Below are positions 9,799-53,867 of a stretch of DNA of 64,000 bases, piece after piece. The stretch's first letter is position 1. Each line of letters begins with the position of its first letter. The stretch spans positions 3,776,001-3,840,000 of the forward strand of contig NZ_JQNL01000001.1 in NCBI RefSeq assembly GCF_000745235.1, given 5' to 3'. Source of the DNA: Luteibacter mycovicinus. Lineage in GTDB: Bacteria > Pseudomonadota > Gammaproteobacteria > Xanthomonadales > Rhodanobacteraceae. A model generated the notes under the pieces. The model searched no databases. It had not been told where the DNA came from and saw nothing but the letters and a program-made list of their open reading frames with translations. A program made the position numbers and the translations under genes.

Positions 9799-10308
9799 AT
9801 GGCCGTTGACCTCATGCCCACCGATGCCGAACTCATGGCGCTGGCCCAGGAGGTCGCCGCCGCCGCGCAGGAGCGCCGGGTGATGGTCGCGACCGCCGAG
9901 TCCTGCACGGGCGGCTGGATCGCCAAGACGCTGACCGACCTGGCCGGCAGTTCCGCGTGGTTCGAAGCCGGCGTCGTGACCTACAGCTATAGCGCGAAAG
10001 AGTCGCTGCTCGGGGTCAACCCGCGCACACTGGAGCGGACGGGCGCCGTCAGCGAGGAGACCGTGCTGGAAATGGTGTCCGGTGCATTGGCCCGGTACGG
10101 CGCCGGTGTCGCGGTGGCGGTGACCGGCATCGCGGGCCCGTCCGGCGGCACGCCAGACAAACCTGTCGGCACCGTTTGGATCGGCTGGAAGCGCCGCGGG
10201 GGCTATGCCCACGCCACGCTTCACCATTTCGATGGTGACCGCGAGGCGGTGCGGCGGCAGACGGTCGCGGCCGCACTTGCTGGAATGACCGCGGAACTGA
10301 AGGGCTGA
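9799..10308 (+). CDS. pncC: Nicotinamide-nucleotide amidohydrolase (CinA C-terminal family)
   Basis: PncC deamidates NMN to nicotinate mononucleotide in the cytoplasm, recycling NAD breakdown products. The 169-residue protein is the free-standing CinA C-terminal domain. The nucleophile motif [20 protein letters not shown] lies near the N-terminus and [22 protein letters not shown] is the other family block. I chose the ATG at 9799; MPTDAELMA at 9814 is also possible. It lies directly upstream of recA, the common arrangement in gammaproteobacteria. The 283-bp gap to the divergent immunity gene holds the promoters of both. Confidence 0.95.
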
Positions 10309-10405
10309 ACCGTCCGGGCTATGGCAAACTTGGGGATTGCGGATCGCAGTCCCTGAGACGACGGTCCGGCAAGATACTCACCTACACACGAGACCGGATA
10401 CCACG

Positions 10406-11446
10406 ATGGACGACAATAAGCGCAAGGCGCTGGCGAGTGCCCTCGGCCAGATTGAAAAGCAGTTCGGCAAGGGTGCGGTCATGCGTCTGGGCGACCGTGT
10501 CGACGACAACATCGATACCGTGTCCACCGGCTCGCTCGGCCTCGATATCGCCCTGGGCATCGGCGGCCTGCCGCGTGGCCGTGTCGTCGAAATCTATGGC
10601 CCGGAATCCTCCGGTAAGACGACCCTGACCCTGCAGGCCATCGCGTCCTGCCAGCGCAACGGCGGCACGGCGGCCTTCGTCGACGCCGAGCACGCGCTCG
10701 ATCCGAGCTACGCCGAGAAGCTGGGCGTCAACGTCGCCGATCTCCTCGTCAGCCAGCCGGATACCGGTGAGCAGGCGCTCGAAATCGCCGACATGCTGGT
10801 TCGCTCGGGCGCCGTGGACATGGTCGTGGTCGATTCGGTGGCCGCGCTGACCCCCAAGGCGGAAATCGAGGGCGAAATGGGCGACTCCCACGTCGGCCTG
10901 CACGCCCGTCTGATGAGCCAGGCCCTGCGTAAGCTCACGGCCAACATCAAGAAGACCAACTGCCTCGTCATCTTCATCAACCAGATCCGTATGAAGATCG
11001 GCGTGATGTTCGGCAGCCCGGAAACCACCACCGGTGGTAACGCGCTGAAGTTCTACGCCTCGGTTCGTCTGGACATTCGCCGTATCGGCGCGGTCAAGAA
11101 GGGTGACGAAGTCATCGGTTCGGAGACCCGCGTCAAGGTCGTCAAGAACAAGGTGGCTCCGCCGTTCCGCCAGGCCGAGTTCGAGATCCTCTACGGCGAG
11201 GGCACCTCGCGCGAAGGCGAGATCATCGAGCTGGGCGTGCGGGAGAACCTGATCGACAAGTCGGGCGCCTGGTATAGCTACAAGGGCGATCGCATCGGCC
11301 AGGGCAAGGAAAACGTCCGCCAGTTCCTGCGCGACAACCCGGCCATGGCCAACGAAGTCGACGCGGAACTGCGCGCGCGCCTGCTGGTCAAGGCCGGTCC
11401 GAAGTCCGAAGCCTCGACCGAGGCCGACGAGCTTGAGGAAGTCTGA
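10406..11446 (+). CDS. recA: RecA recombinase
   Basis: RecA polymerises on single-stranded DNA, drives strand exchange and triggers LexA cleavage. The 346-residue protein starts at [20 protein letters not shown]. It shows Walker [10 protein letters not shown], the VDAEHALD and [21 protein letters not shown] blocks, the L2-loop region with [20 protein letters not shown], and an acidic C-terminal tail. An upstream in-frame ATG at 10337 would add a non-homologous extension and was rejected. I looked for a LexA box before the gene and saw neither CTGT-N8-ACAG nor the Xanthomonas TTAG-N6-TACTA form, which leaves SOS control open. recX overlaps its 3' end. Confidence 0.98.
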
Positions 11447-15227: not shown

Positions 15228-15320
15228 GGAGAGTTGCCCGAGTGGCCGAAGGGGCTCCCCTGCTAAGGGAGTATAGGGTCAAAAGCCTTATCGAGGGTTC
15301 GAATCCCTCACTCTCCGCCA
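15228..15320 (+). tRNA. tRNA-Ser (anticodon GCT)
   Basis: This is a 93-base class II tRNA with a 7-bp acceptor stem, long variable arm, TTCGAAT T-loop and encoded CCA. The anticodon GCT is at 15262-15264 between CCCCT and AAGGG arms. Its last 17 bases are the left copy of the integration repeat of the 38.6-kb element, so the tRNA stays intact after insertion. Confidence 0.97.
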
Positions 15321-15323
15321 GTT
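15304..15323 (+). repeat. attL: tRNA-Ser 3' end, left copy of the 20-bp direct repeat
   Basis: The sequence TCCCTCACTCTCCGCCAGTT covers the tRNA T-arm/acceptor end plus three bases beyond CCA. The identical 20 bases recur at 53848-53867; the flanking base differs on both sides. The integrase gene starts 85 bp to the right. Confidence 0.93.
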
Positions 15324-15408: not shown

Positions 15409-16797
15409 ATGCGCCTGCCTTCCTATCTGCAACTTGCACCGTCAGGTGTTTGGCACTTTCGCCAACGTGTGCCCGCCGACCTCTTACCCGTCTTCAACAG
15501 GCGGTTTCTCAAACATTCCCTCAGGACCCGGGATGTGTTGGCGGCGCAGCGTCTCGCCTTGGCATTCGCCGACCGGTATGCTCGGCTCATCGAACAGGCA
15601 AGGGGAATGCACGTGTCGGACAAGGATGTGCCATCGATTGAATCCATCCTCCGGTCAACGGGGAAGAAGAAGTACAAACTCATCCGCCACGCGGACGGCA
15701 CCGTCGAATTTGAAGCCAAGGGCAAGGCGGACCATGACCTCGGCATGGCCGCCATCGAGCGCATCGGCATCCTCGCCAACGAGCCCTTTGTCCAGAAAAC
15801 GATGCGGGAGGCGGCGGAACGTGAAGCCGCCGCCAAGCCATTGGTCCCCGTGTTGCCCATCGGCAAGGTGGTGACCCAGTGGCTGGCCGACATCAAGTCC
15901 TCGACCTTGCCCAAGACGCTCAGCATCAAGGCGGCGGCGGTCGAGAGCTTCGCCCGGCATTACGGTGAAAAGAAGCCTCTGCATGAGGCAGGGCGCCTGG
16001 ATGTCGGTCGCTGGATTGAAGCACTGCGCGCATCGGGTCTGTCGACACCGACCATCGTCAACAAGGCCGGTTACCTGCGTGGTTTTTTCGATTGGGTCAA
16101 GGCACGCGGGTACTACCCGCCGTTCTCGAAGGACGATAACCCGGCGGCCGGGCAAATCCTGTTCCGGGCAAAAGAGAAGCGGGCACGCCGGGTGCTCGGC
16201 TTCAAAGCGTTTAGCGTCGACCAAATCCGGATTCTTTTCTCGCCTGAAGCGCTCGAAGGCCTGTCCGAAGCCGCTCAATGGGGTGCATGGATTGGGCTAT
16301 ACACGGGCGCCCGTGTGGCGGAGGTGGGCCAACTGGCGTTGGCTGACTTTGTTGTTCAGGACGGCACCCCTTCGATTCGAATCACGAACGAGGGCATCGG
16401 GCAGAGCGTCAAGAATGACGCCAGCATCCGGACGATTCCCATCCACCCGGCGCTGATTGAGCGCGGATTGTTGGACCGTGTGGCAATGCTAAGAGCATCG
16501 GGCGAAACCAGGCTGTTTCCCAAAGTGAAGCTCGATGGCGTCAACGGCGCCGGCAACTGGCTGTCGAAGGCCTTCACCCGGCATGTGGAGAAAAACCTGG
16601 CCTTGCCGGCGAAGGGCAAGTTTGGGTTCCACAGTCTGCGAAAGTCTGTTGTTCAGGGCCTTCAAACAGTGGGTGTCGCGTCAGAACTGCGTGCGGCGTA
16701 TGTCGGGCATGAGTTGGGGGACGAGCATCATGGCTCGTACAGCCGGAAGCCGACGATGGGAGAGCTGCTGGCGGAGGTGTCACAACTACGTTGGTGA
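15409..16797 (+). CDS. int: Tyrosine integrase of the element
   Basis: This 462-residue phage-type integrase catalyses site-specific integration and excision at the tRNA-Ser attachment site. The N-terminus (PSYLQLAPSGVWHFRQRVPADL) is the short arm-binding-like segment typical of island integrases of this type. A SAM-like core-binding domain spans about 145-235. The catalytic domain keeps R302 (TGARVAE), H408 and R411 (HSLRK), H434 (GHELG) and the nucleophile Y444 (GSYSRK). All five are present, so the enzyme should be active. It starts 85 bp after attL and reads into the element, the usual arrangement. No excisionase gene is obvious next to it. Confidence 0.95.
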   Translation: MRLPSYLQLAPSGVWHFRQRVPADLLPVFNRRFLKHSLRTRDVLAAQRLALAFADRYARLIEQARGMHVSDKDVPSIESILRSTGKKKYKLIRHADGTVEFEAKGKADHDLGMAAIERIGILANEPFVQKTMREAAEREAAAKPLVPVLPIGKVVTQWLADIKSSTLPKTLSIKAAAVESFARHYGEKKPLHEAGRLDVGRWIEALRASGLSTPTIVNKAGYLRGFFDWVKARGYYPPFSKDDNPAAGQILFRAKEKRARRVLGFKAFSVDQIRILFSPEALEGLSEAAQWGAWIGLYTGARVAEVGQLALADFVVQDGTPSIRITNEGIGQSVKNDASIRTIPIHPALIERGLLDRVAMLRASGETRLFPKVKLDGVNGAGNWLSKAFTRHVEKNLALPAKGKFGFHSLRKSVVQGLQTVGVASELRAAYVGHELGDEHHGSYSRKPTMGELLAEVSQLRW

Positions 16798-17605: not shown

Positions 17606-17950
17606 GGCTGCGACAGGTCGCGCATTGGTGCGACACATTGCCCACTCCGAGACAGGGCGGGTCCGACGTCGACCAGACAAGGAAGGCCGTGCCCGCGATT
17701 CCAGTCCCACCTCTCGCCCATTTGGCGTGCAGTACCCAGGCGCAAAAATTTCCTGTGTCTGCTCCACGGGCGGTGCGACGCAGTCGTGGGTTTCGTGAGA
17801 AAATACTCAAAATCCGTTGCAGACGTCTTGTGTCGCCTGCTATGGTTTTTGCTGCTGCGAGCGAACGCCCGGTCAGCCTAAGGACGAGCACACAGCATTA
17901 TGTGTCCCCAAGGTGGGGATGACCCGAAATCCTTTTGTCAGGAGATGAGC

Positions 17951-18748
17951 GTGCGCAAGCTGGAATCCCATGAACTCGCCCTGGTCGCCGGTGGTGTAAC
18001 AACCGGCCTTGGTGTCGGCGTCGACGGCATCGTCAATGCCACCCCAAAACTTGCAACAGATGTGGCCAATCTCATGAACGGCCCGAACCACTGGACTTTC
18101 CAGTACGCGCCGGCGAACTCGCCCTACAACGGCAGCGTTACGGTCTTTGGCAGCACACACACCGTTTACATCGACAATCGCTACACCGACAACGCGAGTG
18201 TTGCTACAGGCCAGTTTCTTCATGAGCTCGGTCACATTGAAGCAGGCGCTCCGCCTGATGTGACAAAGTTGAGCGAAGCTGACTACATGCGCCTGTCAGT
18301 GCTCAATGAGGCGTCCGCCCAGACGACCGCCATGCAGTATGCGTCCGTGCTCAGCGGAGCGGGGCTGCAAGTGCATCTGCCCGGCAGCCAGGAAGCGCTG
18401 ACCAACGAGATGCATTCGTACCTGAGCATCCTTTCCCAGGTCCAGTCCGGCAACATGCAGATGCCCCAGGCGATGGGTCTACTGCAGCAGCAGTTTTCCA
18501 AGTTCATGGCCAACGAAAAGCTGGCTAACGGCATGACCTACATGCAGTATTACGACCAGTTTTGGCACGATAACCATTCATTTCCGGTCAATGGGGGAAA
18601 TACGGTGGGCGCCACCGGTGGCGGTGGCGGAAGCTTTGTTCACAGCGGTACCGGCGGCGTCAGCGTCAACCCGTTCGATGGCTGGCAACTGTCTCCCTGG
18701 TCACCCGTGATGAATCCGACGGTGACCGTCGGCGAAATCAGGCCCTGA
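17951..18748 (+). CDS. Double-glycine-leader secreted metallopeptidase-like protein
   Basis: From the GTG at 17951 (AGGAG six bases upstream) the product begins MRKLESHELALVAGG, a textbook double-glycine leader with L4, L10 and V12 in the usual positions and cleavage after GG. The ATG at 17945 has its ribosome site too close. The mature part of about 250 residues has a zinc-binding HELGH at 91-95 (FLHELGHIEAG) and a likely third ligand Glu120 in VLNEASAQ, so it looks like a gluzincin-type metallopeptidase. The tail is glycine-rich. Double-glycine leaders normally belong to small bacteriocins; here the cargo is a whole enzyme-like domain. The C39-peptidase ABC exporter that would cleave and export it is encoded downstream, with a periplasmic protein between. 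I know no named family for this combination. Confidence 0.85.
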   Translation: MRKLESHELALVAGGVTTGLGVGVDGIVNATPKLATDVANLMNGPNHWTFQYAPANSPYNGSVTVFGSTHTVYIDNRYTDNASVATGQFLHELGHIEAGAPPDVTKLSEADYMRLSVLNEASAQTTAMQYASVLSGAGLQVHLPGSQEALTNEMHSYLSILSQVQSGNMQMPQAMGLLQQQFSKFMANEKLANGMTYMQYYDQFWHDNHSFPVNGGNTVGATGGGGGSFVHSGTGGVSVNPFDGWQLSPWSPVMNPTVTVGEIRP

Positions 18749-18750
18749 CC

Positions 18751-19284
18751 ATGAGACGGCTTGTGCTTTGCCTGCTGGCAACCACTCTCTCGGTGTCGGC
18801 GACGGATGCGCCCGTGACCGACAAAGGGCGTGCCAGCCCATCGATGAAATCAGTCTTGTCCGAGGTGCAAGCCGTGGGAGAGCGCTCTTCAAGGCTCGAC
18901 ATCACGCAGCTGCTTGCCGTTTTTCCCTCTCTCTCGCCACCTGCTGAGAGCACAAAGGTCAACGGGCGGGGCAAGTGGGTCGGTCAGGGCTTCGTCATGC
19001 AAGACAATACCAAGGTGGTGACGGTGGATGCGGACGTCCTCGCTGACGGCACTGTCGTCAGCGCCGACCTGGTTCTCGCCCCTGAGCCCTGCTTTGACCA
19101 GTCAAAGGTCGATGCGCTGTACACGGGCCTGCTTGATACCGAGTCCAATGCAAATGTTCCGCCCGACATGGAGAGCATGTACCGGATTCACAGGACGCCG
19201 AGGGTCGAGAGCTTCTTTGGAACCGGAGCTCTCCACCGGGGGTGTGTCACTCGCGTCGGATTCCGTTTCATCCCCGCTGCCTGA
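18751..19284 (+). CDS. Periplasmic protein, candidate immunity to the metallopeptidase
   Basis: The 177-residue product starts two bases after the stop of the metallopeptidase-like gene, so the pair is coupled. Residues 1 to about 18 are a signal peptide (MRRLVLCLLATTLSVSATDA). The mature part has two cysteines (EPCFDQ and HRGCVTR) that could form a disulfide and no recognised enzymatic motif. Position directly after a putative toxin and periplasmic location suggest an inhibitor that protects the producer. A chaperone or maturation factor for the exported enzyme is the alternative. No family recognised. Confidence 0.72.
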   Translation: MRRLVLCLLATTLSVSATDAPVTDKGRASPSMKSVLSEVQAVGERSSRLDITQLLAVFPSLSPPAESTKVNGRGKWVGQGFVMQDNTKVVTVDADVLADGTVVSADLVLAPEPCFDQSKVDALYTGLLDTESNANVPPDMESMYRIHRTPRVESFFGTGALHRGCVTRVGFRFIPAA

Positions 19285-19320
19285 CGAATCACCCGACTGA
19301 CCCATGCCCAATGCATCAGG

Positions 19321-19350
19321 GCATCCGTCCGGCACGCGCCGGACGGATGC
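19321..19350 (+). terminator. Perfect intercistronic hairpin between cargo and exporter genes
   Basis: GCATCCGTCCGGC (19321-19333) and GCCGGACGGATGC (19338-19350) make a 13-bp perfect stem with a four-base loop, 36 bp after the immunity-like stop and 17 bp before the adaptor start. No T-tract follows, so partial termination or RNA-end protection is more likely than full termination. Either would raise cargo over exporter expression. Confidence 0.5.
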
Positions 19351-19367
19351 TTGCAAGGACCGCTGCC

Positions 19368-20630
19368 GTGCTGTTTCGCAAAGAAGTATTCCAAAGCCGT
19401 CAGCACCGCTGGCTCGGTTCCCCCCGCATTGTTGCACCAGTACCTCAACGGTACGCCGCCCTCGCCGCCGTGGCGTTTGCCCTAGGGGTGTTGCTCTGGC
19501 TTTGTATCGGGACCTATACCCGCCGTGTTCCCGCCGTTGGTCGCCTGGTCCCGAGCAAGGGGTTGCTCAGTGTCTCGGCACAAACCCCAGGGACCGTTGT
19601 CGATGTGTTTGTTTCCGTCGGTCAGGTTGTCTCCAAGGGCTCGCCTCTCGTCGTCGTCTCCGGTGAGCGCAAAAGCAGTGCGCTCGGAAACACGTCCGCC
19701 GGCATCGTTGCCACCCTGACCGCCGACCAGTCGCGCTTGACCGCCGACCTCGATTCGGCAAAGGAGCTCAGCGCATCTCAGGCAGCGGCATTGCGTCTGC
19801 AGTTGCAAACAAATGCCGACCAGCTCTCCCGCCTCGATGCGCAGGTCGACCTGCAAAAAAGCCAGATAGAGCTGCAAAAGACCATGCTCGACAAGATTGC
19901 TCCCTTGCTCGACAAGGGGTATGTGTCTGCCCTCCAGGTCCAGCAGCAAAAAGCCCAGCTCCTGACGTCGCGAACCGACCTTGAATCGCTGTACCGTCAA
20001 CGGTCGGATGTGGTCCAGCAGCGAAACACGGCCAGTGCACAGCTCGCCCAGCTGTCGATGCAATTGTCCGAGAAACTGTCCGATGTCGGAGGCCGCCTGT
20101 CGTCGAGTCGTCAGGCGCTTGCCGCAGCCGAGGTCGACCGGTCAACTGTCCTGCCGGCCCCTGGTGAGGGCGTTGTTTCCTCGGTGCTCATCAAGCCCGG
20201 CGAGACGGCGGGGCCGAACCAGGCGCTGGTGACAATTGTGCCAAAAGGCGCACGGCTGCAGGCCCAGCTTCTGGTGGCCAGTGAAGCAGTGGGGTTCGTC
20301 AGGAAAGGCACGCCGGTGATGCTCCGCGTTCGCGCTTTCCCCTTCCAGAAGTTTGGTGTGGTCAAGGGGATGGTCGACCAGGTCTCCACCAGTGCCCTGT
20401 CTCCCGAAGATGCGGCCATGCTGCTCCATCAGCCACAGGTCCAGCAAGAACCGATGTATCTCATTGACGTAAACGTCCCCCAGCAGGACATCGAAGCCTA
20501 TGGCGAGCGGCGGGCCATGCACGCGGGCATGGTGGTTGATGCGGACCTCCTTCTCGACAAGCGACGCATAATCGAATGGATATTCGAGCCCCTAATGGGT
20601 GCAAAGAGCCGGTATGGGAATGACCAATGA
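19368..20630 (+). CDS. HlyD-family membrane fusion protein of the exporter
   Basis: The adaptor links the inner-membrane ABC transporter to an outer-membrane channel of the TolC type. I start it at a GTG with AAGGA eight bases upstream, giving MLFRKEVFQSRQHRWLG, the form usual in CvaA-like adaptors; longer starts to 19242 lack a ribosome site. The 420-residue product has one transmembrane helix at about 26-48 (YAALAAVAFALGVLLWLCIG), a biotinyl-lipoyl-like segment, a long coiled coil (about 120-250) and a beta-barrel with GEGVVSSVLIKPGETAGPN. Its stop overlaps the ABC transporter start (ATGA). No TolC is encoded in the element, so a host one would be used. Confidence 0.92.
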   Translation: MLFRKEVFQSRQHRWLGSPRIVAPVPQRYAALAAVAFALGVLLWLCIGTYTRRVPAVGRLVPSKGLLSVSAQTPGTVVDVFVSVGQVVSKGSPLVVVSGERKSSALGNTSAGIVATLTADQSRLTADLDSAKELSASQAAALRLQLQTNADQLSRLDAQVDLQKSQIELQKTMLDKIAPLLDKGYVSALQVQQQKAQLLTSRTDLESLYRQRSDVVQQRNTASAQLAQLSMQLSEKLSDVGGRLSSSRQALAAAEVDRSTVLPAPGEGVVSSVLIKPGETAGPNQALVTIVPKGARLQAQLLVASEAVGFVRKGTPVMLRVRAFPFQKFGVVKGMVDQVSTSALSPEDAAMLLHQPQVQQEPMYLIDVNVPQQDIEAYGERRAMHAGMVVDADLLLDKRRIIEWIFEPLMGAKSRYGNDQ

Positions 20631-22792
20631 GCGATGCTTCCTCGTTTGAAACCCTTGGGGACGATTTCTCAGGGCATCTTCTGTGGCGCCGGCGCCGTCA
20701 CCTCCCGGACGTCCGCCAGGTCGAGGCCTCCGAGTGCGGCCTCGCATGCCTTGCCATGGTTCTCGCATGGTGGGGCCGGCATGAATCCCTGAGCGAACTC
20801 CGCCGCCGATTTTCCGTGTCGGCCAAGGGCACGACGCTCGAAGACCTCGTTGGCTGGAGCGATGCACTGGGCCTCGTCTCGCGCCCGGTCCGCCTTGAGC
20901 TCGATGAGCTCGGCGAATTGGTCACCCCCTGCATTGTCCATTGGGACCTCGACCACTTTGTGGTTTTGAAGTCTGTTTCTGGACGAAAGGTTACGATTCA
21001 CGACCCTGCCCATGGCCCCCGGACCCTGGACGTCGCCGAAGTCGGCCGACGGTTTACCGGTGTCGCGCTTGAGCTGGCCGCAGGTCCCACGTTCACGACC
21101 AAGAAAGCCAGTCCCACCCTTTCGCTCAGGAAACTTGCCGGGTCGGTCAAGGGCCTTCGTGGCGCACTGGGCAACATCTTCGGCTTTGCGCTTGCCCTGG
21201 AGGTGGTGGCTTTGCTGATGCCGCAGTTCCTCCAGGTGGTCGTCGACCAGGTGCTCGCGGATTCAGACCGCGACCTTTTGACCTTGCTCGGCACCGGGTT
21301 TGTGCTGCTCGTCATCGTCCAGGTCGTCATCACCGCTTTCCGGACGTGGTCGGTGGTGTGGCTGGGTACGCATTTCACAATGAACTGGACGGGCAATGTC
21401 TTCCAGCACCTGATGCGGTTGCCGCAAATCTATTTCATGAACCGCCATCTCGGGGACGTGGTCTCCCGGATGGGAGCTATCAACGTCATCCAGCAGAACC
21501 TGACCACACAGTTGGTCGGAGCGGTGCTCGATGGTCTGATGGCAGTGGCAACGCTTGTCGTGCTCCTCCTCTACAGCCCCATGCTGACCACCATCATCGT
21601 CAGTGGTGTCGTCGTCTACACCCTTTTGCGTCTTGCCTACTTCAAGGCATTCCAGGAGGCCAACCTCAGCCAAATCATGGTCAACGCACACCAGCAGAGC
21701 GCACTGATGGAATCGGTGCGTGGCGTGCAGACCATCCGGCTGAACAACAAGGGCGCAGCAAGGTCGGCGCGGTATCTCAACCAGACAGGCGAGGCATTGG
21801 GCACCCAGGTCGAGGTCCAGCGGCTCGGCATGGTCTTTGGCATGATGCAGGGGCTTACCGGTGGACTCCAGCGGGTCGGGGTCCTTTGGCTCGGTGCGTG
21901 GCTCGCCCTGAAAGGACAGATGACGGCCGGCATGTTGATGGCGTTTGCTGCCTACGGTGAGCAGTTTGCCTCGAGGTCGATGGCGCTGGCCGATTACCTC
22001 ATCCAGGTCAGGCTTCTGCGGCTGCAGGGGGAGCGTTTGTCGGACATTGTGCTGACACCTGCTGAGCCGTTTGCAAGAGGGGCCTATCAAGGACCACCAC
22101 CCGAGGCGTCCGTTGCCTTCAAGGGCGTGCGCTTTCGCTACTCCGATTCCGAGCCCTGGGTCATCGATGGCTGCAATTTCGAGGTGAGACGGGGCGAGGC
22201 CGTGGCGATTGTTGGACCCTCGGGGTGCGGCAAGAGCACGTTGCTGAGGCTCCTTCTTGGCCTGCTCGACCCCCAGTCCGGGCAGGTGGCCGTGGGCGGG
22301 GTGGAGCTCACCCGGCTCGGCAAGGTGGCCTACCGGGAACGGGTAGGCTGCGTCCTTCAAGACGACAAGCTCTTCGCCGGTTCGATTGCCGACAACATCG
22401 CCTTTTTCGATGACAACGCCCTTCCGAAGGCTGTCCAAGCCGCAGCAGAGGCTGCCGGACTCCATGACGACATCTGTGCCATGCCGATGGGCTACAACAC
22501 GCTCGTCGGCGACATGGGCTCGTCTTTGTCCGGTGGCCAGCAGCAGCGGCTCTTTTTAGCCCGCGCACTGTATCGCAAGCCCGATATCCTCGTTCTTGAC
22601 GAGGCGACCAGCCATCTGGACATCGCCCGGGAGCAGCAGATTGCAACAACCATCGGCCGGATGAACATCACACGAATCATGGTGGCCCACCGGCCAGAGA
22701 CCATCGCCCTGGCAGACCGCGTCTTTTTCCTCAGCAGCGGGCAGCTCCATGAGGTTCCGGGCCCTCGTCTGGCGGTTCGCCCCATCGATTAG
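20627..22792 (+). CDS. Peptidase-containing ABC transporter (C39 type)
   Basis: The 721-residue protein cleaves double-glycine leaders and exports the cargo. An N-terminal C39 peptidase domain (about 25-150) has Q31 and the nucleophile C37 (RQVEASECGLAC), the catalytic His110 (HWDLDHFVVL) and Asp126 (IHDPAHG), so it should be active. Six transmembrane helices follow (about 165-440). The nucleotide-binding domain has Walker A GPSGCGKST, signature LSGGQQQR, Walker B ILVLDEATSHLD and the switch histidine AHRPET. It overlaps the adaptor gene by four bases. This confirms the double-glycine reading of the first gene. GGACGTCC inside this gene (around 20707) is coding and not an operator. Confidence 0.96.
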   Translation: MSDASSFETLGDDFSGHLLWRRRRHLPDVRQVEASECGLACLAMVLAWWGRHESLSELRRRFSVSAKGTTLEDLVGWSDALGLVSRPVRLELDELGELVTPCIVHWDLDHFVVLKSVSGRKVTIHDPAHGPRTLDVAEVGRRFTGVALELAAGPTFTTKKASPTLSLRKLAGSVKGLRGALGNIFGFALALEVVALLMPQFLQVVVDQVLADSDRDLLTLLGTGFVLLVIVQVVITAFRTWSVVWLGTHFTMNWTGNVFQHLMRLPQIYFMNRHLGDVVSRMGAINVIQQNLTTQLVGAVLDGLMAVATLVVLLLYSPMLTTIIVSGVVVYTLLRLAYFKAFQEANLSQIMVNAHQQSALMESVRGVQTIRLNNKGAARSARYLNQTGEALGTQVEVQRLGMVFGMMQGLTGGLQRVGVLWLGAWLALKGQMTAGMLMAFAAYGEQFASRSMALADYLIQVRLLRLQGERLSDIVLTPAEPFARGAYQGPPPEASVAFKGVRFRYSDSEPWVIDGCNFEVRRGEAVAIVGPSGCGKSTLLRLLLGLLDPQSGQVAVGGVELTRLGKVAYRERVGCVLQDDKLFAGSIADNIAFFDDNALPKAVQAAAEAAGLHDDICAMPMGYNTLVGDMGSSLSGGQQQRLFLARALYRKPDILVLDEATSHLDIAREQQIATTIGRMNITRIMVAHRPETIALADRVFFLSSGQLHEVPGPRLAVRPID

Positions 22793-22844
22793 TGTGAAAA
22801 CAGCAGCCATGTATTGACAGTCTCTAGTTTTGTGCTTTTGTGTA

Positions 22845-22856
22845 TGGACGTCCAAA
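22845..22856. promoter_or_regulatory. Second copy of the GGACGTCC operator-like palindrome, before the relaxase gene
   Basis: TGGACGTCCAAA at 22845-22856 matches the core of the 17561-17574 palindrome over 12 bases. It lies 33 bp before the relaxase start and 25 bp after a TTGACA (22814-22819), in a position where a bound protein would block transcription. Shared control of cargo export and mobilization is a hypothesis. Confidence 0.35.
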
Positions 22857-22889
22857 TGGAATCGAGGACGCAACCAGCCAAGGAAGGCC

Positions 22890-24590
22890 ATGACCAGTAC
22901 CCCCACCTCTGTTGCTCCCACCCCCTTCAAACACGCACGACCCCACCTCACCACCCACAACCGGGCCCAGGGCCATTCCTCGGTGGCCGGTGCCGCCTAC
23001 CGGCTGGGTCTGAAGCTGACGGACGAGCGCACAGGGGAAACCCACGATTTCCGAAAGCGAAAAGCAGGGGAGGAAATCGTCCGCGCGGTCACGGTGGCGC
23101 CCTCAGGTGCCCCGGCCTGGGCGAGTGACCCCCAGGCCCTGTGGAACCGCGTGGAAGCCTCCGAGCACCGGAAGGACGCGCAGGTCGCCCGGGACTACCG
23201 CGTGCCCATCCCCATTGGCCTGACCGACGAGCAAGCCGGGGATCTCGCTGAGGACATCGCCCGATACATCAGTGACGCGCTGTTGGTGCCGGTGTCCATC
23301 GGTTTGCACCGCGATGCGGACCGCGACGCTCTGGGAAACCTGAAGCCGAACGACAAACAGGGCTTTCACGCACATCTTTTTTTCCCAACCCGCGCCGTCG
23401 ATATGGGGCAGGCGGACGGGTCAGCCGCCGGTGGAAGCACGGGGTTCGGCCCCAAGCTTTCCATGCTCTCGAACAAGAGAACCTCGGCCGAGTGGGTCGA
23501 GCAGCTCAATGCGAGGTGGGCAGAGCTGTCCAACGTCTACCTTGCCGCCGCAAACAAGCCTGAGGTCATTGACCACCGTAGTTACGTCCGCCAGGGCGCC
23601 GTCGTCATCCCCCAGCCAAAAATGGGTGTCGCTGCAACGGCGATGGAACGGAAGGGCATGACGACCGCACGCGGTGATGTGCTCCGGGAAGCCTTGGTCA
23701 TGGCTGAAGTCCAGCGCCGCGTGCAGGACGCCACGAGGACCGCCATACAGGCCGGGCGGGATGTGCGGGTTGTCAGCCTTGCCAACAGCGTCGAGCGGAC
23801 CGCCACCGCCGCAGTCGGAGCCGCCAAGGGCCGGCCCGCCGGTGCCATCCCCATCGTTGCCAATCCAAGAATCATCATGGCCCGGCCGCAACGGATGGTC
23901 CGGACAAGTGCCGTCCAGCGGGAAACCCTGGCTCAGAAAGTGGCTGCTGCTGGGCCGAAGCCAACAAACGCAGCCGAGCAGTTTGCCTTGGAGCGGGCTG
24001 TCGCCTTGGTCAACATTCTGGAAGGCTTTCTCCAGACGGCGGCGGCTCAGATGAAAGAGCATGCAAACCTGGCCGAGCAGGTCCGGCGTGCACAGTCTTC
24101 CGCGCTGGATGTGCTCCATGAGATTGACCGAAGCCGAACCGCGCGGGAATCTGCCCGCCGTGTTGTTCGTGACCTGACAGCGCTGCATCCCATCCGCATC
24201 CGCCTCGCCGATTCGGGTTTACCAGTAAGGGACCCGAGGCAATCGAAGTTAGCTCTGCTCGCGCGCCACGACAACCATGTGCAAGAGGGCAAGAAGGTCG
24301 TTCGTACCCTGAAGGCGACGGAGGCCCAGGCACTTCGAGAAGCCAAGGTTGCCAAGGCGGAGCTCGACCGCCGGAAGGCATCGCTGCAGGAGGCGGTGGT
24401 CAACCTCGCCAACGAGAATGCCGGCCTGCTTCAACAGGTGCTGTCGTTCCTTCCCCAGGACTCGGCAGAGCTCGTCCGGGAGGCGATGAAAGCAGCGGGC
24501 GCGGTCGAAGATGAGCTGGCAGGGGGGACGTCGCTCCCACAGCTGGACGCCGGTTACCAACCCGCCCAGCCAAAGCCAGCCGCTCCCTGA
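22890..24590 (+). CDS. mobA: MobA/MobL-family relaxase
   Basis: The relaxase nicks the element's origin of transfer and pilots the strand into a recipient. The 566-residue protein starts at MTSTPTSVAPT after AAGGAAGG. The N-terminal MobA/MobL domain has the early tyrosine region SVAGAAYRLGLKLTD (Tyr37) and the metal-binding histidine motif GFHAHLFFPTR. The central and C-terminal parts are helical with coiled-coil character (about 400-540). No helicase domain is present, as in other MOBQ-type proteins. It is the only transfer gene I recognise, which is the basis for calling the element mobilizable rather than conjugative. oriT should lie nearby, perhaps in the 97 bp upstream, but no classical oriT was identified. 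Confidence 0.9.
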   Translation: MTSTPTSVAPTPFKHARPHLTTHNRAQGHSSVAGAAYRLGLKLTDERTGETHDFRKRKAGEEIVRAVTVAPSGAPAWASDPQALWNRVEASEHRKDAQVARDYRVPIPIGLTDEQAGDLAEDIARYISDALLVPVSIGLHRDADRDALGNLKPNDKQGFHAHLFFPTRAVDMGQADGSAAGGSTGFGPKLSMLSNKRTSAEWVEQLNARWAELSNVYLAAANKPEVIDHRSYVRQGAVVIPQPKMGVAATAMERKGMTTARGDVLREALVMAEVQRRVQDATRTAIQAGRDVRVVSLANSVERTATAAVGAAKGRPAGAIPIVANPRIIMARPQRMVRTSAVQRETLAQKVAAAGPKPTNAAEQFALERAVALVNILEGFLQTAAAQMKEHANLAEQVRRAQSSALDVLHEIDRSRTARESARRVVRDLTALHPIRIRLADSGLPVRDPRQSKLALLARHDNHVQEGKKVVRTLKATEAQALREAKVAKAELDRRKASLQEAVVNLANENAGLLQQVLSFLPQDSAELVREAMKAAGAVEDELAGGTSLPQLDAGYQPAQPKPAAP

Positions 24591-29984: not shown

Positions 29985-31826
29985 TCAGCCAGCCATCCGG
30001 TTCGCGATAACGTCCAGTTCGTCCTTCGAAAGCCTGTCCATGCTCCAACCCTTCGCAAATCGGGCATTCCGCGATTGAGGCAACTGGGCCTCGGTCAGGT
30101 CGTTGATTCGTACGCGGGCGGGGAGGGCCGCGCCCTCGCCGACAAAGATGGCTTCCTGCTGTCCGAGGTTCGGCAGGGACTTGGTCATGCCGGACAAGCC
30201 GTCAGGCAGGAACCGGGCCACATGTTGCTGGTCTGCCTGGTTGGTCAACCGGAGTACAAGCCAGGTGCCGCACTGGGCAATGACCGTACTCTCGACGTCG
30301 GCGGGTCGTTGGCTGACCAACATCAATCCCAAGCCATATTTTCGGCCCTCACGTGCAATCCGACGGATGGCACCCTGCGCGGCGGCATATTCGGCCTCGC
30401 CCCGGTCGGGGACATACCGGTGGGCTTCCTCGCACACGAGAAGGACAGGGTCCCTCTCCCGCTCCTCGGGTGCCTGAAAGACCTTGTACCGGAACAGCAA
30501 TTGGGCGAGCGACGCTGTGAGAGGGCCGGCGACCTCGTTGGGCAGCCCGGAGATGTCCAGTACCTTGATGTCAGCATCGTCTTCCCTGACACCGACAAAC
30601 TGACCGATGATGTCCCCCAAAGACGGGTCGCCCGGTTGCCAGTCCTTCATCATGAACCGGATGCGGGGGTCTTGCCGCAACACGGAAATCTTGTCGAGGA
30701 TAGACTTGAACTCGTCGGCGAATTGTCCGGCAGGGACGCTCTCCAGAACATTTGTCTTCGTCGGCCGCGCGGCCTGAAGGTAGACGATGTGATTAACCAG
30801 TTCATTCAAGCTGAATGGACGCGGCTTGTCGCGGTCAAAATTGTCCAGTTCTTCCTGCGTGTGCCCGTTTGCGGGACGGGGATAATCGTGGGGAAGGCCA
30901 TCGGTCGGGGCGGGACCTCCATGCGTCGTTGGAGATGCGGCGACCAGCCCGGCAGCCTGCATCCGGGCATGCGTCAGTGCCTTGTAAATGACGTTATGCT
31001 GGCTTGTGGCTTCCCGTTCCGTTTTCCCAATGGTCAGCAGCCGAAACTCCTCGGCAGACATGAGCCAATAAGGCAGCGCAACCGAAGTGCCTGCTGCATT
31101 TTCATTGCCGACGGGGTCATAGGCGCGGTAACGGACTCCCCGATTCCCGAACGCGGTGCCGTACTCGCCATGCGGGTCGACGACGATGATGCAGGGGCGA
31201 CATTCATCCAGCCCGTTGGCTCTGTGAATCAGGGTTGCGTGCAGGAGTGCAGATACGGCGCCAGATTTTCCCGAGCCAGTAGAGCCTAGGACCGCACAGT
31301 GCATGCTGAACATCTTGTCGATGTTGGCCCGGCAGGAAACGCCTTCCGCACCGACGTATGTGCCGAATCCAACCAGCGCATCAATGCCATCTTCTGCTAG
31401 CTTGCCTTCGGCGGCCGAATAGAGTGCGACGCCCTCATCCCTTGTCAGGAGATACACGCCCTGGCGAGGCAGGGGGTAGGTCGTTACGCCGCGCTTGAAG
31501 TTGAGCTTGTCAGTCGCCGACAGCCACGTGCCTTCGGCGAAAAGCTCGACTTCCATGATGCGCTGGTCGGCCTCCGGAGGAATGACCTTCCCTTGCTCAA
31601 TGAGGTCTTCCGAGCGCATGCGAAGCAGCGACACAAATCCGAACACCAGACTCCGACCGAAATGAACCTTGACGATGCTCCCCATCTGTCCGATGGGATA
31701 GACACGACCTGCATGGCTTCTGCTCAGTTCTGCAACATCCCCATCGAGTTCGACCCGGATGGTCGTTCCTGACACCTCGATGATATGTCCGATGCGCAGT
31801 TCCTTGACGACGTCGAAATTGTTCAT
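29985..31826 (-). CDS. herA: HerA-type ATPase of a SIR2-HerA defence system
   Basis: The 613-residue protein is a HerA/FtsK-like hexameric ATPase. An N-terminal HAS-barrel region (KELRIGHIIEVSGTTIRVEL) precedes the motor domain, with Walker A GSTGSGKSGAVSALL near residues 180-195, Walker B LLVCEEAHRYVP and an arginine-bearing ending of the ATPase domain (GLMLVSQRPADVES). The start MNNFDVVKEL overlaps the SIR2 stop by four bases, so the two are coupled. SIR2-HerA pairs are an established antiphage system in which SIR2 depletes NAD+ and HerA assembles with it and helps sense or cut DNA. A DNA-repair HerA-NurA pair is ruled out by the partner. Confidence 0.93.
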   Translation of the reverse strand: MNNFDVVKELRIGHIIEVSGTTIRVELDGDVAELSRSHAGRVYPIGQMGSIVKVHFGRSLVFGFVSLLRMRSEDLIEQGKVIPPEADQRIMEVELFAEGTWLSATDKLNFKRGVTTYPLPRQGVYLLTRDEGVALYSAAEGKLAEDGIDALVGFGTYVGAEGVSCRANIDKMFSMHCAVLGSTGSGKSGAVSALLHATLIHRANGLDECRPCIIVVDPHGEYGTAFGNRGVRYRAYDPVGNENAAGTSVALPYWLMSAEEFRLLTIGKTEREATSQHNVIYKALTHARMQAAGLVAASPTTHGGPAPTDGLPHDYPRPANGHTQEELDNFDRDKPRPFSLNELVNHIVYLQAARPTKTNVLESVPAGQFADEFKSILDKISVLRQDPRIRFMMKDWQPGDPSLGDIIGQFVGVREDDADIKVLDISGLPNEVAGPLTASLAQLLFRYKVFQAPEERERDPVLLVCEEAHRYVPDRGEAEYAAAQGAIRRIAREGRKYGLGLMLVSQRPADVESTVIAQCGTWLVLRLTNQADQQHVARFLPDGLSGMTKSLPNLGQQEAIFVGEGAALPARVRINDLTEAQLPQSRNARFAKGWSMDRLSKDELDVIANRMAG

Positions 31827-32992
31827 GCTGTCGCACTCCCCGTGCGAAGGAACGCGGTGGTTCCTGTGAACTTCCACCATCCAAACACGGTGCCGTTGCC
31901 GTCATCAATTCTTGCCCGACGACCCCAATGAACACCGTGCTCCGTCAGGACGAACACGCGGTCTGCGGCGTCCGACCTCAGCCACTCCCTCAAGATTTCC
32001 GGCAATGCGGCTCCCTCCATGCAGAACGCAATCAGGGTCAGCTTGCTGTCGGCCGAGAGCAAGGCACGTTCAATTTCCTCGTTGACGTGTTCATCCCCGA
32101 AGCTGTAGCCGGCCACGCCGAGCACAAGTTCGTCGCGCGCGCCGATGGTTCTGCGGAAAAGGTCAAATTGGGAGGCAAACGGGTCCCGCTGCGTCGACAG
32201 GTACTTGGTCGACTGGGGATGGATGAGAACGCGGCCTTTCTTTTCGGGATAGACATCGCTGTCCCGCACTCGCCACACGCCGCCGTCTTCGCCGAGCACC
32301 CAGTCAATGGAGCCGTGGAGCTTGATGACCAGGGCGCGGGACCCGCCAACCTTCGGCTCCTGTCCGTACTGGTGCGCCCGATATGCAACGGCACCCCCCG
32401 CGAAACCGTCCCATGCGGGAATGCGGGCCAATGCCAGGGCGTCTTCGAGAAGCGTGTCGTAATTCGTCGTGAAAAAATGGGTTGGCTTGAACCGGTTGGC
32501 ACGGCCGGCCTGCCGCTTCTCAAAAAGAGCGCGCACAAATTCCCGGTGGTGCGTGGCCACGGGAAGCGGCTTTTCTGGCGTACCAATCTGTTCGGCTACT
32601 TCGCCCTTTGCCTCAACATATCCCCACCGGATGGTGGTTGCGATGTCATCGAGGATGGCGGTATGGGCAGCATGCAGGGCATCGGTGGTGAATTCCTCAC
32701 CGCCGACTGAAATGGCCTTGGCCTCCAGCCGCGTTGCAATCGCCGAGTAATCTGCGAGTTGGCTGAGCACCTGCTCGATGTGGGCACTTTCCGGGAGCTC
32801 TCCGATGAGAAGCTCCAGCAGTGCGCCGTGGTCGCCTTCAGCTCCAAGAGCCCTGACCCTGGTGGTCAGGGCTCCCATCAGCGGCAATCCGGCTTCGACA
32901 CTGATACCCGCACCCAGCAGCCATGCCTGGTTGGCGGTACTGAAGTGACTGTCGAGCTGGTGCACGACATCCTCGAACGCATTCCCCGCCAT
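31823..32992 (-). CDS. SIR2-domain NADase of a SIR2-HerA defence system
   Basis: The 389-residue protein carries an N-terminal SIR2 fold: WLLGAGISVEAGLPL binds NAD, FFTTNYDTLLEDAL is the TN-D motif and VIKLHGSIDWV supplies the catalytic histidine. The start is MAGNAFEDVV with GGAAGGA before it; a longer frame to 33124 has no ribosome site. SIR2 proteins of this kind in defence systems hydrolyse NAD+ on infection and halt the host. The C-terminal domain is not recognised beyond SIR2-associated sequence. It overlaps herA by four bases and reads in the same direction. No Sir2-specific zinc cysteines are present, consistent with defence-type rather than deacylase sirtuins. Confidence 0.93.
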   Translation of the reverse strand: MAGNAFEDVVHQLDSHFSTANQAWLLGAGISVEAGLPLMGALTTRVRALGAEGDHGALLELLIGELPESAHIEQVLSQLADYSAIATRLEAKAISVGGEEFTTDALHAAHTAILDDIATTIRWGYVEAKGEVAEQIGTPEKPLPVATHHREFVRALFEKRQAGRANRFKPTHFFTTNYDTLLEDALALARIPAWDGFAGGAVAYRAHQYGQEPKVGGSRALVIKLHGSIDWVLGEDGGVWRVRDSDVYPEKKGRVLIHPQSTKYLSTQRDPFASQFDLFRRTIGARDELVLGVAGYSFGDEHVNEEIERALLSADSKLTLIAFCMEGAALPEILREWLRSDAADRVFVLTEHGVHWGRRARIDDGNGTVFGWWKFTGTTAFLRTGSATA

Positions 32993-33214
32993 GTCCTTCC
33001 CCTGGATTTGTGGAATCACGATGGTACGGCGAAGGTGGGCTGCCGGGAATCCGCCCAGCACGTCGCGCTGGCCTGTGCGCTTATTCGGCAATAGGACGAA
33101 ACATGGATACCGAAAACGCGACACCCGTCGTCGGCTGGACTTCCCGTTCAGCGCGGGTGCGACACGCTGCCCATGTCAGACGTCCCGATGACGGTGATGA
33201 AGCTGCCACCCGTG

Positions 33215-47022: not shown

Positions 47023-47184
47023 GTCGAGAGTATATCGGCGAATGGTACGTGGAGTTTTGCGCCGCGCTGAAAAGGCACGCGGTCAAGGTTGGCCCGGACC
47101 TGTATCACCACTGTTACAGGCTTTTTATGCGTGCCGACTCGGCCTAGAGTGGGTAGATTGACCGTCGAACGGCCGCACGGTGAC

Positions 47185-48741
47185 ATGCCCGTGTTTATCC
47201 GACCGAGAACCGCATCCACCGCCCAGCCCGTCATCGTCGCGGCCTACATGCGCATGTCGACGGACATGCAACGCTACTCGCTGGAAAACCAGACGCGCGC
47301 CATCGATGCTTATGCCGCCGGCCATGGCATGAACATCGTGCGTGTGTATCAAGACGCGGGGCGGAGCGGGCTGACCATCGAGCGACGGCCGGGGCTCACG
47401 TCGCTCATGGACGACGTCCGGGGCGGCCGTGCGGGATTCGATGGCGTGTTGGTGCTCGATGTCACGCGATGGGGACGGTTCCAGAACACGGATGAGGCAG
47501 CCTTCCATGAATTCATGTGCTGGCGCTCCGGCATCCAGGTCATCTACGTTGGTGAGCCCTTTGAGAATGACCAGTCGCCCTTTTCGATGGTGTTCAAAGG
47601 ACTGAAAAGGGCCATGGCCGCCGAGTACAGCCGGGAGCTCTCAGCCAAGACCTCGGCGGGCCAGCGGCACTTGGCAAGCCTCGGCTACCGCCAGGGCGCA
47701 ATTGCGGGTTATGGGCTCCGGCGTCTGCTTGTCAGTGCCGACGGCGAGGCGAAGTTCCTCCTTGGCGACGGCGACCACAAGAGCATCCTCACCGACCGCA
47801 TCATTCTCGTCCCGGGCCCACCGGAGGAAGTCAAAACCGTTCGCTGGATGTTCCAGCGCTACTTGGAGGGACTGGGCTGCAGTGCCATTGCCCGGGAGCT
47901 CAATGACCGTGGCGTGCCGACGCACAGGGGGAAGCCTTGGGTCTATGGCACGGTGCGGACCATTCTCGACGGCGAGAAATATGTCGGGCACGCCGTGTAC
48001 TGCCGGGCGAGCAAGAAGCTCGCAGGGCCCCTTGTCCAGAATCCGGAGTCCGATTGGGTCAGGAAGGAAGGCGCTTACGAGGCAGTGATTGCACCAGAGC
48101 TGTTCCGAGCGGTCGCGGCCAGGCGGGTTGCCCTGAGAAAAAGGGATACGAGGACCGAACTGCTCGACCAAGCGCGGCGGTTGCTCAAGAGGGAAGGCAG
48201 GCTGAGTGCTCCGCTCCTTGATGCGGAGCCAGGCATCCTGTCGAGTCACGGCTTTGCCCGCCGCTTCGGTGGCCTGACCGCGCTGTATCGTGAAGTAGGG
48301 TTTGTCCCTGGAAGGAACCCGCGATACGCCGACATCCGACTGTGGCTCACCCGGTGGCGGGAAAGCCTGACGGCCTTCGCCGTTGGGCAACTGGAAGAGG
48401 CGGGTTCGACAGTGACGCGGGAAGGGTGGTGCCTGACAGTCGATGACGCTTGGTCACTGTCTTTCATGGTGGTGCACGGGGCGCGGCCGAGAGAGTCACG
48501 CCAGCAGTGGTTCAACCACCGGAAACCCGAAGACACCGACGTTGTCGTCTTTGCGCGCTCCGAATTTGGGGAGCCCGGCCCCAAGGACTACTTTGTTCTT
48601 CCAAGAGTTATGTTCCCGACCTGGCCTTCTTGCATCTATACAAGAAACGGTCCGTTGCTCGAAAGCTGCCGGTACCCATCCCTGGCCGTTCTCGAAGACT
48701 TGGCGCGTCTGTCACGGCAGGACACGCAACTGTGTGGGTGA
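47185..48741 (+). CDS. Large serine recombinase
   Basis: The 518-residue protein has a resolvase catalytic domain (YMRMSTDMQRYSLENQ with the nucleophile Ser, then DVTRWGRFQN) and the Recombinase domain (WVYGTVRTILDGEKYVGHAV), followed by a C-terminal region that lacks an obvious zinc ribbon. ATG 47185 was chosen; earlier starts to 47089 lack ribosome sites. Large serine recombinases integrate phages and islands. Here it is internal, which suggests a previously separate element or a switch that acts on an internal site. A small gene is coupled at its 3' end through a GTGA overlap. Confidence 0.88.
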   Translation: MPVFIRPRTASTAQPVIVAAYMRMSTDMQRYSLENQTRAIDAYAAGHGMNIVRVYQDAGRSGLTIERRPGLTSLMDDVRGGRAGFDGVLVLDVTRWGRFQNTDEAAFHEFMCWRSGIQVIYVGEPFENDQSPFSMVFKGLKRAMAAEYSRELSAKTSAGQRHLASLGYRQGAIAGYGLRRLLVSADGEAKFLLGDGDHKSILTDRIILVPGPPEEVKTVRWMFQRYLEGLGCSAIARELNDRGVPTHRGKPWVYGTVRTILDGEKYVGHAVYCRASKKLAGPLVQNPESDWVRKEGAYEAVIAPELFRAVAARRVALRKRDTRTELLDQARRLLKREGRLSAPLLDAEPGILSSHGFARRFGGLTALYREVGFVPGRNPRYADIRLWLTRWRESLTAFAVGQLEEAGSTVTREGWCLTVDDAWSLSFMVVHGARPRESRQQWFNHRKPEDTDVVVFARSEFGEPGPKDYFVLPRVMFPTWPSCIYTRNGPLLESCRYPSLAVLEDLARLSRQDTQLCG

Positions 48742-50856: not shown

Positions 50857-50937
50857 TTTCCGGATGCCTCTGGTTGTGCCGGGCCTGCACGGCCGACAGT
50901 CCTTCAGTACACGTGCCTAAACCGCGAGGAGTTGAAC

Positions 50938-51567
50938 ATGCAGTACGCAGACGGGCCGGACAGGTTTGCCGAAGTCATGGGCGACGACCTTGGCGAGGTT
51001 ATGGCTGTCCTCGACAACAAGCTGGTTGAACTGCAAGTGGTGTGGCTCCAGTACCGGCAACTCTTTGGCACGAACGAAGACACGGTCCATCTCCTGAACC
51101 GTGCAGCAGGGCTGTTTTTCCAGATTGTCCAGGACCAGCTATGGGATGGGGTCCTGCTCGGGATTGCCCGGATGACGGACCCGGCCAAAAGCGGAAGCAA
51201 CAGGAACCTCACCATCCACTCCCTTGGTCCGTTGATTGCCGATATGGCTTTCCGGTCCCGAGTCGATGCCCTGTGTGCGGACGCATTGGATGAATGTGAA
51301 TTCGCCAGGGAACACCGGAACAAGCGAATCGCCCACCGTGACCATCGTCACGCAGTAGACCAAAAGGCCCATCCGCTTTCCGGCATCAGTCGGGCTAAGG
51401 TGGAACGCATGCTCGATTCACTGCGCAAGGTTCTCAACGCCCTCCATCACCATTACCGGGACACCACAGTCCTGTATGAGGACTTTGTCGACCACTCAGG
51501 AGCGGAGCTGCTGGTGCATCGACTGGAAAAACTGGAGCGGCTGCAAAAGCCGGGCCTGACCGTCTAA
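50938..51567 (+). CDS. HEPN/AbiU2-like protein
   Basis: The 209-residue product starts at an ATG six bases after GAGGAG. Its sequence (QDQLWDGVLLGIARMTDPAK, then HRNKRIAHRDHRHA) follows the AbiU2/HEPN pattern: an R-x4-H motif in RNKRIAH is the usual HEPN ribonuclease active site. AbiU2-like proteins occur in abortive infection systems. It lies downstream of an HNH-like gene in one transcription unit. Toxicity in the absence of a partner, or a toxin role in a toxin-antitoxin pair, has not been shown. Confidence 0.72.
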   Translation: MQYADGPDRFAEVMGDDLGEVMAVLDNKLVELQVVWLQYRQLFGTNEDTVHLLNRAAGLFFQIVQDQLWDGVLLGIARMTDPAKSGSNRNLTIHSLGPLIADMAFRSRVDALCADALDECEFAREHRNKRIAHRDHRHAVDQKAHPLSGISRAKVERMLDSLRKVLNALHHHYRDTTVLYEDFVDHSGAELLVHRLEKLERLQKPGLTV

Positions 51568-53847: not shown

Positions 53848-53867
53848 TCCCTCACTCTCCGCCAGTT
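53848..53867 (+). repeat. attR: right copy of the 20-bp direct repeat
   Basis: This copy is identical to 15304-15323. Immediately to its right lies a hairpin terminator (53875-53895) that would be the original terminator of tRNA-Ser in an uninterrupted chromosome. Confidence 0.93.

Follow-up and report, generated by a model that had tools for sequence, protein, structure and literature searches.

A double-glycine leader on a metallopeptidase-like toxin domain beside a C39 exporter in Luteibacter mycovicinus: a candidate secreted antibacterial protease

ABC (ATP-binding cassette) exporters that contain a peptidase domain are known chiefly for the transport of small peptides. An operon at positions 17951-22792 of a 64,000-nucleotide stretch of the Luteibacter mycovicinus genome (assembly GCF_000745235.1, contig NZ_JQNL01000001.1, positions 3,776,001 to 3,840,000; the whole stretch is called the window below) raises the question of whether such an exporter can also carry a complete enzyme-like toxin domain. 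The operon consists, in this order on the + strand, of a cargo gene, a gene for a signal-peptide protein, hlyD and a gene for an ABC exporter with a C39 peptidase domain, and all four genes were confirmed (Table 1). From sequence comparison, we consider it probable that the operon makes a secreted antibacterial protease and that it is one toxin-immunity member of a polymorphic system whose large cargoes carry double-glycine (GG) leaders.

A preliminary description of this DNA had proposed a GTG-started gene in which a GG leader is fused to a 250-residue domain with HELGH and a downstream Glu. Our analysis agrees with this. Because an alternative in-frame ATG at 17945 abuts the AGGAG sequence, the GTG, which has a proper spacing from AGGAG, is the better start. 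From this GTG, the 15-residue leader MRKLESHELALVAGG is joined to the 250-residue domain. The mature domain starts with VTTGLG directly after the leader, and Val16 is the first residue after GG. Downstream of HELGH (residues 91-95), NEASA begins at residue 119, which gives Glu120. We scanned the whole window with a leader pattern. Of 3494 start codons followed by 30 or more open codons, six matched, and two of these, one being the cargo gene, have a Shine-Dalgarno-like sequence. Beside related exporters, which are described below, 40 of 44 leaders are exactly 15 residues long. Compared with these 44 leaders, the window leader carries a commonest residue at M1, R2, L4, E8, L9, V12, G14 and G15, where the search pattern itself fixes residue classes at several of the positions, but not the length. 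The window leader possesses the GG end and the key hydrophobic and Glu positions of a substrate leader for C39 export. The mature cargo (26.6 kDa) is larger than a class II microcin, for which the limit is less than 10 kDa. Simple scans for a promoter and a terminator at the operon gave nothing above chance.

The HlyD-type adaptor and the C39 ABC exporter with all catalytic residues, both claimed earlier, are also present. The adaptor matches TIGR01843 (E 6e-43, under the curated cut-off) and HlyD_3 (1.7e-13, over its own cut-off); comparison with relatives indicates that hlyD likely starts at 19347 and not at 19242. The exporter matches Peptidase_C39 (E 1.1e-33), ABC_membrane and ABC_tran in Pfam. 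It has Gln31, Cys37, His110 and Asp126, which we take to be the catalytic residues of the C39 domain, with Gln31 for the oxyanion.

Table 1. Positions of the operon genes and of features of the surrounding island in the window
Feature	Position	Strand	Remarks
Left attachment repeat	15304..15323	+	20 bp; at 3' end of tRNA-Ser(gct) 15228-15320
Tyrosine integrase of island	15409..16797	+	DUF6538 3.8e-16, over cut-off; Phage_integrase 0.0026, below cut-off
Shine-Dalgarno-like AGGAG of cargo gene	17940..17944	+	6-nt spacer to GTG at 17951
Double-glycine leader	17951..17995	+	15 residues
Cargo gene	17951..18748	+	leader and metallopeptidase-like toxin domain (HELGH 91-95, Glu120), Gly-rich tail, C-terminal TVTVGEIRP
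Signal-peptide protein, proposed periplasmic immunity protein	18751..19284	+	177 aa; signal peptide by eye; Cys114 and Cys165 conserved
HlyD-type periplasmic adaptor	19347..20630	+	open frame from 19242; TIGR01843, HlyD_3
C39 peptidase-containing ABC exporter	20627..22792	+	4-nt overlap with hlyD
MobA/MobL relaxase	22830..24590	+	next island gene after exporter, outside the operon's function
Right attachment repeat	53848..53867	+	same 20 bp as 15304-15323

What kind of domain is the cargo? Relatives were gathered by genome and locus searches rather than by a protein-database search, and their counts are therefore lower bounds. When the window's own genome is included, the cargo alone matched 4 of 398 genomes of the order, and profiles matched 11 of 233 genomes of the family and 3 of 398 genomes of the phylum. 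Three more loci with the toxin domain came from genome contigs, and the distinct relatives number 20 in total. Single-sequence scans for relatives of the cargo gave none that was confirmed in genome contigs and none in plasmids. A profile built without the window recovered the window cargo with an E value of 3.1e-16 among 8291 open frames. Residues H91, E92, G94, H95 and W48 are invariant in all 16 aligned family sequences. Glu120 is near-invariant, and locus L022 provides the sole sequence without it (L numbers are used below for the individual loci). This is the HExxH motif with a conserved downstream third ligand by which zincins are recognized. The best Pfam E value among the 16 members was 0.00046, obtained by the window cargo with DUF6782, a putative metallopeptidase family. 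Membership in DUF6782 (PF20573) was rejected because the score was 20 bits against a gathering cut-off of 27. Weak matches to peptidase families M78 (two members) and M32 (three members) were also seen. PDB sequence searches gave nothing useful, and PHROGs gave nothing for the cargo or its partner. The structure model of the cargo has a predicted local distance difference test (pLDDT) score of 76; 46 of the 50 structural neighbours listed are, by our count, zincin-type or HExxH entries, with low scores. The cargo domain is a member of a rare, unnamed family of predicted metallopeptidase-like toxins, which is in line with the earlier reading of a zinc-protease-like domain.

The second gene encodes the coupled signal-peptide protein that had been expected. 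It begins 2 nt past the cargo stop. We built a partner profile from 11 partner proteins, with the window excluded. For 17 of the 20 toxin relatives, this profile matches a protein that is adjacent to the toxin or fused to it; because 11 of these 17 proteins built the profile, the independent figure is 6 of 9. There was no match at L089, L016/L074 and L019/L075. The window protein gave E 0.11 with the partner profile, the best value among frames that are not clear members, and as a single positional test this corresponds to about 1.3e-5 (0.11/8291). In hhalign against the partners, it gave E 1.7e-4 with a probability of 50, which is marginal. Across nine partner or fused sequences, only the columns of Cys114 and Cys165 are invariant. 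Homology of the 177-residue protein to the partners of related toxins is likely. This resemblance, although of marginal significance, supports the periplasmic immunity partner suggested in the preliminary description.

The relatives carry the toxin domain in several delivery formats. For example, it is fused to VgrG in L007 and L085 (TIGR03361, 8e-176 and 7e-140; L003 equals L085) and, by near identity to L007, in L008; L007 and L008 are from Variovorax. In L090, it is fused to PAAR (5e-23), and in L089 to XVIPCD, the signal of an antibacterial type IV system (7e-26). Longer N-terminal parts are present in L002, L004, L005, L006, L012 and L021, and Pfam gave no match for those of L002, L004 and L005. 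At L006 (10428-12820, Burkholderia sp. Ax-1724), three tandem immunity homologues follow one toxin gene. L013, L015, L017 and L018, from the same genus, possess a Sec-type signal (by eye), the toxin and an immunity-like domain in a single chain, and in L014 the toxin with a Sec-type signal and the immunity-like protein are encoded by two genes. The structure model of a fused toxin-immunity relative has pLDDT 88 and a predicted template-modelling (pTM) score of 0.72. No GG leader was seen on the printed frames of the relatives, where N-termini are missing for L016, L019, L023 and perhaps L022. Among the copies found, an intact toxin domain with a GG leader occurs in the window alone. The only other link of the toxin domain to such an exporter is L074 (= L016; 9315-10255, same genus), in which the first 180 hlyD residues are joined to the HELGH half of the cargo. 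This locus, with its truncated hlyD, looks like a deletion remnant.

We then consider the exporter. Exporters at E <=1e-80 were found at 124 places (our count, window included), distributed over 85 of the 233 genomes of the family. Sixty exporter loci were analysed, namely 58 of the 65 best-scoring others and the host genome's two other C39 exporters. The seven others of the 65 are four exporters interrupted by an in-frame stop, two that are repeat copies within a single genome and one that was overlooked. Across the 60 loci, the exporter strand has 48 GG-leader frames preceded by a Shine-Dalgarno-like sequence, and the opposite strand has 3. Four of the 48 were dropped as false by eye: three are internal to hlyD (L062, L065 and L066) and one, in L123, is dehydrogenase-like and lies outside the clade described next. 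The 44 leaders mentioned above remain.

A tree of 61 exporters places that of the window in a clade of 25 rows with support of 100/99. The same test for large cargoes was applied to the 60 loci, with one pattern, a 15-residue leader, a frame of at least 90 aa and no Shine-Dalgarno condition. A large leader-bearing frame was found in 17 of the 24 other clade loci versus 3 of 36 loci outside, and none was found on the opposite strand; this contrast is descriptive because the clade was drawn from the tree when most large cargoes were already known. Three loci end less than 1500 nt from the exporter (L058 in the clade; L098 and L115 outside). Of the three frames matched outside the clade, that of L099 (91 aa) directly precedes the exporter, and those of L111 and L118 resemble, by eye, part of another ABC ATPase. 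Judged by eye, these are doubtful and do not look like cargoes.

The large cargoes within the clade are diverse. The exporters nearest to that of the window (L054, L055, L056 and L060) have differing cargoes, two of them lysozyme-like and two beta-rich by eye; the lysozyme-like reading of L054 and L060 obtained no confirmation from the libraries. The cargoes of L068 and L091 have weak endolysin-family matches (0.0014 and 0.0019). At L094 (~10150-10905), a locus of a different genus, the C39 exporter is accompanied by a GG-leader cargo that is unrelated but also contains HExxH (LGHEAAH); this cargo shows a weak similarity to DUF3810, below the cut-off. Small leader peptides of 42-88 aa are found mostly outside the clade, and inside it at L065, L069, L070 and L073. 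The scans gave no sense-strand leader frame at the host genome's two other C39 exporters; L071 has one of 46 aa on the opposite strand. In many mapped loci, a signal-peptide gene adjoins the cargo or exporter gene. Because the exporter is constant while the cargo changes and a signal-peptide gene is next door, the pattern is that of a polymorphic toxin system.

Several other genes were seen at these loci. Fic-type genes (motifs like HPFxDGNGR, by eye) stand beside cargo and exporter in L054, L056, L060, L061, L068 and L093; Pfam Fic is over the cut-off in L061 (6.5e-10) and just under it in L054. In L055, L056, L057, L059 and L064, the beta-rich cargo is followed by a protein of about 430-440 aa (at 12021-13313 in L055). 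The L055 protein has an aspartyl protease domain (1.7e-11), which is odd for an immunity protein. In L062 and L063, the exporter proteins' own starts fit the GG-leader pattern, probably by chance.

How might a secreted toxin of this kind enter its target? Colicin M, pesticin and other TonB-imported bacteriocins combine a TonB box, a flexible linker, an enzyme acting in the periplasm and periplasmic immunity, and are released by lysis. Several of the large cargoes possess a TonB-box-like stretch soon after GG and then a Gly-rich linker. We made a TonB-box matrix from 26 boxes of the host genome's own receptors. With this matrix, 16 large cargoes (the window cargo among them, but not L095 and L096) scored higher over their first 45 mature residues than 481 control frames (Mann-Whitney 6e-8), and 13 large cargoes, with one per homologous pair left out, gave 2.5e-7; the length of 45 residues was chosen after the sequences had been viewed, and the control frames include spurious ones. 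In a shuffle test, 5 of the 16 large cargoes (L093, L064, L094, L091 and L056) had p<0.05 versus 3 of 31 small ones. The window cargo was negative in this test (p 0.455), and its N-terminal score was ordinary (p 0.37 against controls). Its best TonB-like site is the C-terminal PTVTVGEIRP. Against control C-termini this site reached p 0.046, with both ends of the cargo tested, and we do not regard it as established. The window tail matches the cargo tails of L062 and L063 (TVTVGPIQS) in register and no other of 7901 frames, with a pattern drawn from these cases. The enrichment among large cargoes suggests a colicin-M-like TonB import for the class. Because the TonB-box match of the window cargo is weak, TonB-dependent entry is no more than a possibility for this member. 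The window system would share the plan of colicin M-type bacteriocins, including the periplasmic immunity known for colicin M (PMC4661593; this and the other papers cited are used from excerpts), and differs by its leader-cleaving exporter and weak TonB-box match.

What we infer for cleavage, export, zinc-dependent activity, killing, target, immunity and target entry is as follows. The C39 domain of the exporter would recognise the 15-residue leader and cut after Gly15. The ABC-HlyD pair, together with a TolC-type channel encoded elsewhere, would export the 250-residue mature protein in one step. The mature protein would be a zinc metallopeptidase acting in the periplasm of target cells, whereas the 177-residue protein would go to the periplasm of the producer and block returning or sibling toxin. 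Among members of the family of bacteria, the exporter would be kept and the toxin-immunity cassette exchanged. The earlier proposal that a whole zinc-protease-like domain leaves by the C39 route gains support from a leader and an exporter that fit a clade with other large GG-leader cargoes. One point named at that time, the absence of leader and exporter from homologues, weighs in part against this interpretation. In the relatives, the domain comes with type VI or type IV modules, with a Sec-type signal or with an N-terminal part of no named kind, and only the L074 remnant links another copy of the domain to such an exporter. We read this absence as a change of delivery module and not as a refutation.

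The same relatives bear on two other explanations. Their presence among type VI and type IV effectors, together with a TssK gene in the host genome, would fit a cargo that is an effector of the type VI (or type IV) system, with the C39 exporter a neighbour by chance and the leader fortuitous. However, TssK is about 188 kb from the operon, and the cargo has no Pfam match to VgrG, PAAR or XVIPCD. Its adjoining genes are instead those of HlyD and the ABC exporter, all tightly spaced. Moreover, the leader is of the usual length and residues and stands directly before the domain start TTGLG, and the exporter clade has other large leader-bearing cargoes. We regard this reading as very improbable. 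It is also improbable, though not to the same degree, that the cargo is a protease secreted for nutrition or processing and that the 177-residue protein is a chaperone or autoinhibitor instead of an immunity protein. The single chains of L013, L015, L017 and L018 might represent an enzyme joined to its inhibitor, but other relatives are carried on VgrG, PAAR and XVIPCD modules, and the three tandem partner genes of L006 are arranged as in immunity arrays.

A further explanation keeps the export and changes the entry. The toxin may be held on the producer surface and act by contact, like Cdz, so that TonB-dependent import would not be used. Cdz of Caulobacter crescentus is a type I system that holds 84-86-aa glycine-zipper proteins on the cell surface and has a membrane immunity protein (PMC5380434). 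It resembles the window in its type I exporter, secreted antibacterial proteins and immunity gene, and the Gly-rich tail and weak TonB-box-like site of the window cargo would be compatible with contact action. In contrast, the Cdz proteins, as the excerpt describes them, are small and have no enzyme domain, whereas the window encodes an enzyme-like domain with a periplasmic-type partner. In addition, TonB-box-like motifs are enriched among the clade's large cargoes taken together. Contact action is unlikely in our judgement, although it deserves more weight than the two explanations above.

A C39-exported antibacterial protease can be compared with several known systems. RaxX is the small substrate of RaxB. 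Class II microcins (MchF) and RaxB of Xanthomonas are like the window in an active-type C39-ABC exporter, an HlyD partner and a short GG leader. Their known cargoes are small peptides, whereas the mature window cargo is a 26.6-kDa enzyme-like domain. Microcins are set at less than 10 kDa, and MchF and RaxB are named as such exporters (PMC8277102). The C-terminal domain of VgrG2b is an HExxH toxin active in the periplasm, with a periplasmic immunity protein, PA0261, and several type VI formats; this immunity protein has partly conserved Cys and needs disulfide formation for efficient function, and family members also occur in Sphingomonadaceae, where type VI systems are rare (PMC6899460). The window family is similar in its HExxH toxin domain, a proposed periplasmic partner with conserved Cys and multiple delivery formats. 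The VgrG2b family is annotated as DUF4157, and the excerpted text describes type VI formats and does not mention a C39 exporter (PMC6899460). DUF4157 is absent from the matches of the 16 aligned members, and no VgrG2b chain is among the fold neighbours listed, which excludes nothing. In the case of X-T4SS effectors (X-Tfes), XVIPCD is present and the upstream gene is taken as the immunity gene (PMC6759196). The toxin-domain relative L089 has XVIPCD, whereas the window cargo has no match to it. A 2012 survey of polymorphic toxins treats C39-like domains as toxins, and GG-leader delivery was not seen in the excerpt of it (PMC3482391). Our literature search, which covered titles and abstract openings, gave no paper describing GG-leader enzyme toxins from C39 exporters. 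What is new here is a portable putative toxin domain that is also found on type VI and type IV modules, and an exporter clade with large GG-leader cargoes that appear to be exchangeable.

As a more tentative proposal, which may well need revision, Xanthomonadaceae-type bacteria could possess an undescribed arsenal in which a dedicated C39 clade secretes GG-leader toxins of about 10-30 kDa. These toxins would have swappable killing domains (metallopeptidase, endolysin-like, lysozyme-like and beta-rich) and their own periplasmic immunity genes. Many would enter by a TonB box like colicin M but be actively secreted, and the window would hold a type VI/IV effector cassette that this system has captured. 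A natural 250-residue enzyme toxin with a GG leader would show that large toxin domains, too, can travel through the simple three-part C39 exporter, and that a single toxin domain can switch between type VI, type IV and type I delivery when its end piece is exchanged. Passage of a large protein through a C39 exporter, and the crossing of the target outer membrane by a secreted enzyme toxin, thereby become testable questions.

The host genome was assembled into a single contig of 4.6 Mb. Because the 20-bp direct repeat at the tRNA-Ser end recurs on the right (Table 1), we place the operon in a tRNA-Ser island of about 38.5 kb. Inside this island, there is an anti-phage defence pair of SIR2 and HerA (29985-33124, -; PADLOC, SIR2 1.9e-133 and HerA 3.2e-134). 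A large serine recombinase with Resolvase and Recombinase domains (47089-48741) is present in the island, which has its own tyrosine integrase. Near the right end of the island, an AbiU2-type HEPN gene is found at 50932-51567 (Pfam 1.2e-21).

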